From Sutcliffiella horikoshii (GTDB lineage: Bacteria; Bacillota; Bacilli; Bacillales; Bacillaceae_I): a stretch of DNA of 64,000 nucleotides. Each line of letters begins with the position of its first letter. The first letter of the stretch is position 1. The translations under genes were made by a program, and so were the position numbers. The DNA is taken from assembly GCA_001636495.1 (NCBI GenBank), contig KV440964.1, positions 3,364,666-3,428,665 on the forward strand. Reading direction: 5' to 3'. The notes beneath the pieces were generated by a model. The model was not told where the DNA came from. It did no database searches and saw only the letters and a program-made list of their open reading frames with translations. This document shows positions 53,853-56,368 of this stretch, piece after piece.

Positions 53853-54839
53853 CTATTGATCTTCCACCATAAAGCTCTCTATCGCTAGCTCCAGCTTCTT
53901 CATTTCCATAAGCATGGCACCCGCGTACTCCTCTTTATAGAACTCCTGCTTTTTGATAATTTGCAACAATCCCTTGGTAAAGAGAATCGGATGATAGGAG
54001 TCTATTTTAAGTGTTTCATATTTCCCTTCGTAATCCAAATGGATTTGCTCTAGCTTCGTTTGGAGGCTGTAAATACGTTCTTTAGCTTCCGTTAGCTCAT
54101 CCATCAGTTCTTGCTTGTCTTTCTCCTCTGCACTTTTATCCTGTATGGCATGGAGGCCTGCATCCTGGCTGCGATTACGTTCCGCGACTTCTTGCTTCTT
54201 ATATATCTTCCATCTTTTATTTATTGTGAGAAAAAGTTCTTTGAACTCCCCTACTGTTTCTGATTGTCCAAGAAACAAGTAACCATCCTCATTCAATGAG
54301 TGGTGGAAGGACGAAATGATTTTCTGCTGCTGTGTGGGCTGAAAATAATTTAGTACATTTCTGCAACTGATAAAATCAAGGTGATGAAACCCCGGGTCTT
54401 TTGCAATATTGTGTGGTGCAAAAATGATATGCTTTCTTATTTCTTTTTTCACTACATAGAATTCCTGCTTTTTGTCAAAATACTTGTTCAATATGGTGGG
54501 TAACACATTTTCAAATGCATAATCAGGATACACGCCTGCACCAGCAATCTTTACTGAATCATAATCCAAATCAGTGGCATAGATCTTGAAATTCATTTTT
54601 TGTTCCATGTTTAAGGATTCAATATGCTCTTTCAAAAGGATGGCCAAAGAGTAAACTTCTTGTCCAGTAGAACAACCGGCAATCCAAAGCCGTATTTCGC
54701 TCTTACGTAATTCCAGCTTCTTTCTTAAAATGCCTGCGAATACTTTATTCTGGATAAAATCAGCCAATTCATTGTTTCTAAGGAATTCTTCTGCACTACC
54801 TGAAGGTTGATTCAAATCTTTTAAGTTTTGACTTAACAT
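53853..54839 (-). CDS. CheR-type methyltransferase lacking the N-terminal helical domain
   Basis: 328 aa. SAM site LWIAGCSTGQEVYSLAIL at about 51-68, KIYATDLDYDSV, DFISCRNVLNYF and GYLFLGQSETVG are classical CheR elements. Only about 40 residues precede the SAM motif, so the usual N-terminal four-helix domain is missing. The tail after 215 is a coiled coil (about 235-280) and a helical end. No chemoreceptor gene is nearby. GGGAG lies 7 bases before ATG and a stop lies upstream in frame, so the N-terminus is genuine. Confidence 0.85.
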   Translation of the reverse strand: MLSQNLKDLNQPSGSAEEFLRNNELADFIQNKVFAGILRKKLELRKSEIRLWIAGCSTGQEVYSLAILLKEHIESLNMEQKMNFKIYATDLDYDSVKIAGAGVYPDYAFENVLPTILNKYFDKKQEFYVVKKEIRKHIIFAPHNIAKDPGFHHLDFISCRNVLNYFQPTQQQKIISSFHHSLNEDGYLFLGQSETVGEFKELFLTINKRWKIYKKQEVAERNRSQDAGLHAIQDKSAEEKDKQELMDELTEAKERIYSLQTKLEQIHLDYEGKYETLKIDSYHPILFTKGLLQIIKKQEFYKEEYAGAMLMEMKKLELAIESFMVEDQ

Positions 54840-54954
54840 ATCTAGTCTCCCTATAAATTGTTCATCTTGTTCTCTATCTTTTTTCTATTTTAACAAATTC
54901 CAAAAGGTTTCTGGCAAAAAAATTCCTACAAAAATCGAGTTTTATTTTATAGGG

Positions 54955-54982
54955 TTGACTTTTATTTTGTTTGATGTATAAT
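54955..54982 (+). promoter_or_regulatory. Strong sigma-A promoter of an unassigned RNA
   Basis: TTGACT, 16 bases, TATAAT. Near-consensus; among the best promoter matches in the window. The predicted start is about 54989-54991, at TTGGGTGCAAGCCCAA. Confidence 0.75.
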
Positions 54983-55040
54983 AAGAGTTTGGGTGCAAGC
55001 CCAACAACATTAGTAACTTGATATAGAAAGGAAGAACGTT

Positions 55041-55133
55041 ATGACATTCTTAAGCAATACCAACGTGTCACAAGGATGCACTGGCGTTCCATATAGTTTT
55101 TTACAGAGGCTTAATCGATCTGGCACGGCCTAG
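55041..55133 (+). CDS. 30-aa ORF inside the structured RNA
   Basis: ATG 55041 has AAAGGAAG 7 bases upstream. The product begins MTFLSNTNVSQGC and ends LQRLNRSGTA. It begins about 50 nt into the transcript, a typical place for a leader peptide. Composition is plausible for a peptide, but no family is recognised and no regulatory codon run stands out. Confidence 0.4.
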   Translation: MTFLSNTNVSQGCTGVPYSFLQRLNRSGTA

Positions 55134-55346
55134 GAGCCGTAAGGACGTATGAGAGGTAGGGCTTACGTTGTTTAAGTAAGGGAAACTACCATGGAATTAT
55201 ACCGCGGCAAACGAATATAATACTTTTATGTCATTTATAAATCATGTCCATGTAGCAGGACAACTTATAATGCTTGTGATGAAGCAAGTTACTAATTGCG
55301 CTATACATCATTAATTAGCGCCTTTATTCGAATAATAATAAGATAG

Positions 55347-55384
55347 AAGCAAGTTGTCCTTCGTGATAACTTGCTTTTATTTTT
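55347..55384 (+). terminator. Terminator of the structured RNA, with competing helix
   Basis: AAGCAAGTT (55347), 12-base loop, AACTTGCTT (55368), then TTATTTTTAT. Bases 55351-55360 can instead pair perfectly with 55257-55266, and AAGCAAGTT also occurs at 55282, so alternative folds compete. Confidence 0.75.
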
Positions 55385-55501
55385 ATGTCATAAAATTTGA
55401 AACTATTGTAAAACACCTGTATAATTATATGCTGATTGTCAAATATACTCGAATTAAAAAATAGATTGTAGATTTAGTTATGTATTTCAAGGGGGAATTG
55501 G

Positions 55502-56023
55502 ATGTCTTTCACAAGCTTATTCACGGCCGAAGAAGAGACAAAGGATAAAGAAGAAATCAAACAGGAACTGGACGATTTAGAATTTCAGATATTCCGTATG
55601 AAAGAGAACATGAAAGAAATTGCAAAGAAATGGCAAGTGATTGGCATCGACCAGACAAAAGAGGATAATTGGGTGGTCGTCTATACCAATTATGACAACA
55701 ACTCTTGCAAAATTATGCTTAATGATTGCGAATCAGCCTATCGGGGACATTGGGACTTCTCCATCCAAGCGACATATAAAGAAGATGACACTATTTTCAT
55801 CGGTGATATTAAAGGCCCGGAAAATAAAGGGTACGGCTCCATTTGCATGAACTATTTAAAGGAAGTGGCCAAGAATCAGAACATCCAGCATATAACCGGT
55901 GACATCGCCAAGCGCGACTGGGACCACGTGGACCGCCTTGTACACTTTTATGAAAAGCATGACTTCCAGGTGGATATCGACAAAGACTCAAAATCTGGTG
56001 AGATTGTTTGGCAACCATATTAA
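55502..56023 (+). CDS. GNAT-like protein with N-terminal coiled coil
   Basis: 173 aa. Residues about 10-45 form a charged coiled coil (EEIKQELDDLEFQIFRMKEN). The C-terminal part looks like a GNAT fold with the acetyl-CoA loop GPENKGYGSICMNYL and a closing LVHFYEKHDFQVDID. Substrate unknown. AAGGGGG precedes ATG. It is the first gene after the structured RNA and lies 24 bp before the CHY zinc-finger gene. Confidence 0.75.
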   Translation: MSFTSLFTAEEETKDKEEIKQELDDLEFQIFRMKENMKEIAKKWQVIGIDQTKEDNWVVVYTNYDNNSCKIMLNDCESAYRGHWDFSIQATYKEDDTIFIGDIKGPENKGYGSICMNYLKEVAKNQNIQHITGDIAKRDWDHVDRLVHFYEKHDFQVDIDKDSKSGEIVWQPY

Positions 56024-56047
56024 TTTATCATTAAGGGGATGGATGGA

Positions 56048-56368
56048 ATGACTGTTAAAATACATGGTTCCACGGTTGATGATCATACACGCTGCATCCA
56101 CTATCATTCCGAAACAGATATTATCGCCATCAAGTTCCATTGCTGCGGGGACTATTACCCTTGCTACCAATGTCACGAAGCGCACGCGAATCATCCTATC
56201 ATCGTATGGCCGAAAGAACACTTCCAGACCAAAGCTATTCTATGCGGGAACTGTAAGAACGAACTGACGATTCACGAGTACTTAAACAGCCATTCGATTT
56301 GCCCGGAATGCCATTCAAACTTCAATCCCGGCTGCCAATTACATTATCATCTATATTTTGAAAAATAG
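56048..56368 (+). CDS. CHY zinc-finger protein
   Basis: 106 aa with the CHY pattern: C-x-H-Y in TRCIHYHSE, then FHCCGDYYPCYQCHEAH, LCGNCK and SICPECHSNFNPGC. It should bind about three zinc ions. Homologous to Hot13-like proteins; function in bacteria unclear. ATG 56048 has AAGGGG 9 bases upstream. Confidence 0.87.
   Translation: MTVKIHGSTVDDHTRCIHYHSETDIIAIKFHCCGDYYPCYQCHEAHANHPIIVWPKEHFQTKAILCGNCKNELTIHEYLNSHSICPECHSNFNPGCQLHYHLYFEK

Follow-up and report, generated by a model that had tools for sequence, protein, structure and literature searches.

What is encoded on the plus strand between positions 54955 and 55385 of the 64,000-nt stretch of Sutcliffiella horikoshii DNA analysed here (the window, to which all coordinates refer)? 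The original prediction, made from the sequence, described a structured RNA with its own promoter and terminator and put it forward as the window's best candidate for an undescribed RNA or attenuation system. A CheR-type methyltransferase gene (53853-54839, minus strand) lies divergent from the promoter of this RNA.

A sigma-A type promoter, TTGACT-N16-TATAAT, occupies 54955-54982 on the plus strand (-35 box at 54955-54960, -10 box at 54977-54982) and agrees with the consensus at 11 of 12 positions. Because promoter-like sites were no rarer than chance by count (9 found vs 9.9 expected in shuffles), the site is credible on account of its conservation, the TATAAT box being retained in all 18 rows of the alignment of the window's family. 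The intrinsic terminator at 55344-55385 on the plus strand, a stem at 55344-55379 followed by U residues, was not listed by the simple scanner that gave the promoter call, and a custom scan found it in 6 of 8 family loci (the exceptions being L015 and L019). In 11 homologues, 5 pairs of its stem have changed on both sides. Together, promoter and terminator would delimit a noncoding plus-strand transcript of about 396 nt (54989-55385). The fold of this region on the plus strand reached -109.4 kcal/mol with a z-score of -4.53, and none of 100 shuffles was as good; the minus-strand fold of the same region had a z-score of -2.18, with 2 of 100 shuffles as good.

By DNA search, all 18 genomes of the window's family, its own among them, contain the element, and the 18-row alignment retained the sequence of the terminal stem in most rows, along with long blocks of the core. 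This terminal stem, P1, was predicted by RNAalifold from 11 of the 18 family homologues (alignment A4) and would pair AUUAGUAACU (55009-55018) with AGUUACUAAU (55287-55296), both on the plus strand; it is nearly invariant in these 11 rows and hence without covariation. The conserved TATAAT box, the fold and the compensating terminator stem all support a structured RNA with its own promoter and terminator, as had been proposed.

Within the transcript lies a conserved three-way-junction core (55103-55184, plus strand; 85.9 bits with R1, a model built from this core). The junction is made of helix 1 (55110-55114 with 55172-55176; 91.6% of cells paired, two-sided changes at 4 of 5 pairs), hairpin 2 (55125-55140, in which 55125-55129 pair with 55136-55140; 93.3% paired, two-sided changes at 5 of 5 pairs) and hairpin 3 (55144-55169, in which 55144-55151 pair with 55162-55169; 96.2% paired, two-sided changes at 5 of 8 pairs), all on the plus strand, and the hairpin-3 loop AGAGGUAGGG (55152-55161, plus strand) is nearly invariant. 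Across an alignment of 95 of the 96 distinct cores (A2; L061 excluded), 94.1% of the cells are paired and two-sided changes occur at 14 of 18 pairs, counts that do not stand for independent events because the homologues are related. In the same 95 cores, 195 two-sided cells were counted vs a shuffle mean of 60, a number that none of 500 shuffles reached, and control structures slid along the alignment had at most 48% of cells paired. RNAalifold on the 95 diverse cores recovered the outer helix, hairpin 2 and most of hairpin 3, and the three-way junction was absent from the single-sequence fold and from RNAalifold on the 11 near-identical homologues. Homologues with covarying stems, for which the original prediction proposed to look, therefore exist.

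The loci from which the cores were taken are mostly best-scoring matches rather than a random sample, and they were turned to the plus sense of the window before core extraction. The core finder, a motif with at most 6 substitutions, favours well conserved cores and missed 14 loci (L092, L093, L111-L114, L117, L119, L120, L123, L125, L129, L130 and L133), which are in none of the alignments A2-A4; a looser finder later took some of them, such as L133 in the promoter and terminator count.

A loop pseudoknot between a downstream CUACC and the GGUAG loop of the window was rejected by eye, since loops reading GGCAG or GGAAG occur without a matching change; at a single locus, the short form L055, the downstream GCCUCUC fits the changed loop. 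The alternative pairing GUYGUUU-AAACGAC, also judged by eye, follows lineage and does not compensate. Support for an upstream helix Pa was mixed, with own pairing at -6.5, cross pairing at -6.0 and shuffled pairing at -5.7 kcal/mol, and in 22 of 33 loci own pairing was better than the mean of the shuffles.

The Rfam model RF01410 (BsrC), which matches this core, was found in 167 of 199 genomes of the order sample and in 153 of 299 genomes of the class sample. A BLAST search with 336 nt of the window RNA matched 131 of the 199 order-sample genomes, mostly through the core. In the phylum sample, R1 matched 15 of 398 genomes: 14 belong to the window's class (own genome included), and the one outside it has a weak partial match (G554; 20.1 bits, model positions 23-67 only, E = 7.6e-4 for this single genome of the 398) that is probably due to chance. 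Chance probably also explains a second R1 match in the window's own genome (17.7 bits, E = 0.024) and two weak ones elsewhere in the window (14.0 and 12.3 bits). B. subtilis was the sole match among 14 control genomes, and a scan of named genomes gave 5 loci, none of them titled B. subtilis. Because the named matches include Cytobacillus praedii, Bacillus timonensis and Paenibacillus xerothermodurans, we took the class to be Bacilli.

The homologues fall into long forms and short forms, the latter consisting of the core only. Long forms carry CGCGGC past the core (in the window as part of a CCGCGGC motif, 55202-55208, plus strand), and for the promoter, terminator, helix P0 and neighbour counts a long form was defined by CGCGGC 60-115 nt past the core; L019, which has an insertion between the core and CGCGGC, was counted as short in those tallies. 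CGCGGC is invariant in 34 of 34 aligned long forms (A3), which were chosen by reading and picked partly by this very motif, and CUGGCRUUC occurs 5′ of the core in 29 of these 34 (by motif). In the long forms a helix P0 encloses the core, in the window pairing 55086-55102 with GGGAAACUACCAUGGAAU (55180-55197), both on the plus strand: own pairing averaged -11.5 vs -8.9 kcal/mol for cross pairing. Of 42 long forms, 34 had an own pairing better than the mean of the cross pairings, and the other 8 showed no such advantage.

Simple, custom-made scores placed a promoter with at least 10 of 12 consensus positions on the sense strand of 41 of 46 long forms vs 3 of 46 in the antisense mirror, a promoter with at least 11 of 12 positions in 32 of 46 vs 0 of 46, and a terminator over the score cut in 29 of 46 vs 0 of 46. 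The same scores gave promoters with at least 10 of 12 positions in 15 of 83 short forms vs 3 of 83 antisense, and terminators in 12 of 83 vs 1 of 83. Judged by these signals, the long forms look like separate genes. Because a clear promoter is rare among the short forms (15 of 83), some of these may be part of mRNAs.

Searches for a mobile origin of the element led to the rejection of two candidates. Neither the long nor the short form had a match in 50,697 phage records, and among plasmids the short form occurred in 3 records, with the window form in 2 of these, all of 0.7-2.7 Mb and labelled non-mobilizable. An exact-pattern scan of viral contigs (IMG/VR) returned a single contig, L184, on which a CarD-like gene and the short form lie beside amidase-like lysis genes; by eye, this appears to be host DNA that borders a prophage.

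The surroundings of the short forms give rise to the alternative that survives best, in which these would be a cis element or a 3′ UTR-derived RNA of cold-shock or CarD-like genes and the long form would have become independent later. Such a gene lies within 900 nt of 58 of 92 short forms, the nearest one being on the strand of the RNA in 58 of 58 cases (5 short forms have a second, farther cold-shock gene on the other strand), and few short forms have a clear promoter of their own. The gene is located upstream in 34 and downstream in 24 cases, however, and none of the 46 long forms has one within that distance, and we consider this origin unlikely. Pfam supports the CarD-like and cold-shock labels with one example each. 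In the accessible part of the BSGatlas publication (PMC8208703), a second BsrC match is placed between cspC and ydeB, which is the kind of neighbourhood, beside a cold-shock gene, that we found for the short forms.

Two RNA elements of the window itself were also recorded. An Rfam cspA thermoregulator match of 82.6 bits lies at 1688-2036 on the minus strand, cold-shock genes being what short forms adjoin elsewhere, and a SAM riboswitch at 2301-2460 on the plus strand spans 160 nt vs the 108 positions of its model and so contains a long insertion. At the locus L150, three tandem cold-shock protein genes, alike in the part compared, lie upstream of the core on the strand of the RNA.

A cis-acting leader or attenuator that governs the downstream 173-aa gene (55502-56023, plus strand) by termination or readthrough is less probable still. 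The RNA does lie upstream of this gene in the window's family (13 of the 46 long forms have it no more than 900 nt downstream, as does L019), and a local CUUG-CAAG pairing, noted by eye, could compete with P1. Yet the gene is preceded by its own promoter-like site, TTGAAA-N17-TATAAT (55397-55425, plus strand), whose TATAAT is kept in 13 of 17 relatives, and the terminator sits between the RNA and this site. None of the four tested genes was present within 900 nt in 31 of 46 long forms, the 173-aa gene lies upstream of the RNA instead in L158, and outside the window's family the long forms are without a constant neighbour; the constant downstream gene that would mark a cis attenuator was thus not found across the homologues. 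Attenuation of a GNAT-like gene is thus not supported. The name "GNAT-like" comes from the original prediction only, and the 173-aa protein had no Pfam or NCBIfam match at the thresholds used. In several relatives, this gene is followed by a CHY zinc-finger gene (56039-56368, plus strand, in the window).

The third alternative starts from Rfam. The BsrC model matches 55094-55180 on the minus strand with 77.5 bits vs a gathering threshold of 38, and in cmscan this 87-nt core scored far above gathering both in the window and in all 17 long-form loci scanned (a set in which L019 is treated as long), always on the strand opposite to the RNA. The model covers 87 of about 396 nt and contains one helix region, not the three-helix junction. 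The functional RNA could be minus-strand BsrC as it stands in Rfam, with the plus-strand signals incidental, and the minus-strand loops are C/U-rich, as is common in sRNAs of Gram-positive bacteria that occlude ribosome binding sites. Against this stands the wobble asymmetry. Over the 18 pairs of the three helices in the 96 distinct 82-nt cores, related sequences whose wobbles are not independent events, we counted 240 G-U and 10 A-C cells; the A-C total would be 84 with pair 27-33 (74 A-C cells), which was rejected as a non-pair and lies outside the 18-pair structure. Since A-C is the wobble expected if the reverse strand were the RNA, the structure is placed on the plus strand. The scarcity of antisense promoters (3 among 46 long forms, 3 among 83 short ones) and of terminators on that strand (none among 46, 1 among 83) likewise speaks against a minus-strand RNA, which we regard as very improbable.

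As far as comparative sequence evidence can tell, then, the locus is one that encodes a structured RNA on the plus strand, with a core held by compensatory changes, and this core is reverse-complementary to the BsrC model of Rfam. By score it belongs to RF01410; by the modelled strand it does not, as the wobbles, promoters and terminators are on the other one. The claim that the RNA matches no known class consequently needs qualification: the RF01410 match is formally significant in cmscan, yet it is confined to the opposite strand and to the core.

Other known classes gave little. A permissive Rfam scan of 54900-55500 found, besides BsrC, nothing better than E = 1.8, and in the 17 long forms BsrC was the sole family over the core, with two sub-threshold matches elsewhere in L103. 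For RNase P, 6S and SRP RNA there was no Rfam match above gathering for this RNA, and ARAGORN called no tRNA or tmRNA in 54800-55500. A short UGG...ACCGCGG stretch 3′ of the core is reminiscent of the T-box riboswitch (RF00230), UGGAAU...ACCGCGGC being what we take to resemble T-box sequence. Unlike a T-box riboswitch, however, the RNA lacks a constant downstream gene, and Rfam scans of the window and of the 17 long forms gave no T-box match. OLE, ROOL, GOLLD and raiA are large orphan bacterial ncRNAs whose function was unknown at discovery; the present RNA resembles them in its length of hundreds of nucleotides, its complex conserved fold and its apparently standalone nature, and none of the four had a match in the same scans. 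A Bacillaceae-1 RNA match was observed at L127:1400-1466, just upstream of a long-form core.

The one tiny ORF that had been noted within the RNA is present (55041-55133, plus strand, 30 codons), but its translation probably serves no function. That the locus is a small-protein gene or a dual-function RNA, with an ORF of 24-30 aa after AAAGGAAG, has a close to negligible probability. The window's family does conserve an SD-like sequence and the ATG, and a 24-codon version occurs in 13 of its 18 aligned members. However, a 1-nt deletion breaks the ORF in L012, the window, L011 and L014 have a shifted ORF end (4 of 18 rows in all), and the ORF is inconspicuous, as read by eye, in the long forms of other families.

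On present evidence, all four of these alternatives rate below a standalone, probably trans-acting noncoding RNA that is encoded on the plus strand and is not an attenuator of the next gene, an explanation that we favour as a whole with modest confidence. Its first part, a standalone plus-strand noncoding RNA, is highly probable, and action in trans is reasonably probable. RNA polymerase with sigma-A would make the plus-strand RNA, which would then fold and act in trans rather than on a neighbour, most likely held by a protein. Hfq would be the best candidate for this protein because the BsrC region of B. subtilis was strongly enriched with Hfq (RPKM ratio of 53.6, a region-level value given without strand in the accessible part of PMC3574147, Table 1), although we put its involvement forward only tentatively. 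The hairpin-3 purine loop GAGAGG-N-AGGG and the AAGG junction strand would be shown to a conserved partner, which would probably be a C/U-rich single-stranded RNA; contact through the purine loops is plausible, if somewhat short of an even chance.

In B. subtilis, BsrC sits between ydaG and ydaH, in a region that is expressed but joined to the upstream gene (Rasmussen et al., PMC2784878, accessible part), and it is cited as expressed in vegetative, not stationary, growth in the accessible part of PMC4634765, where a BsrC homologue went undetected in B. amyloliquefaciens dRNA-seq, a result that counts against the favoured explanation. The accessible part of PMC5670726 lists a transcript of Paenibacillus riograndensis that bears the label BsrC and, at 322 nt, exceeds the 87-nt model. 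The accessible literature contained neither a function of BsrC nor a discussion of its strand. Apart from the 322-nt Paenibacillus transcript, we found no description of the long form in Rfam scans or in that literature, and the part of the original prediction that spoke of an undescribed RNA is to this extent upheld for the long-form structured RNA, the part concerning attenuation of the GNAT-like gene being unsupported.

The RNA thus looks widespread and easy to overlook, with Rfam listing the core only and on the apparently wrong strand. If the Rfam model is on the wrong strand, the sequences of BsrC matches reported for other genomes are the wrong ones, and any targets predicted from them would be misleading. 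Because the core is present in such large parts of the order and class samples (167 of 199 and 153 of 299 genomes) and its loops are nearly unchanged, its role is presumably an important one. It is conceivable, if doubtful, that this large structured RNA serves throughout the Bacilli in a dedicated ribonucleoprotein that acts in translation or transcription, with historical ties to cold-shock and CarD-like genes. If so, a ribonucleoprotein RNA would have been overlooked, of which Rfam holds the core alone, on the wrong strand. As B. subtilis carries a match, the function could be tested in that species.
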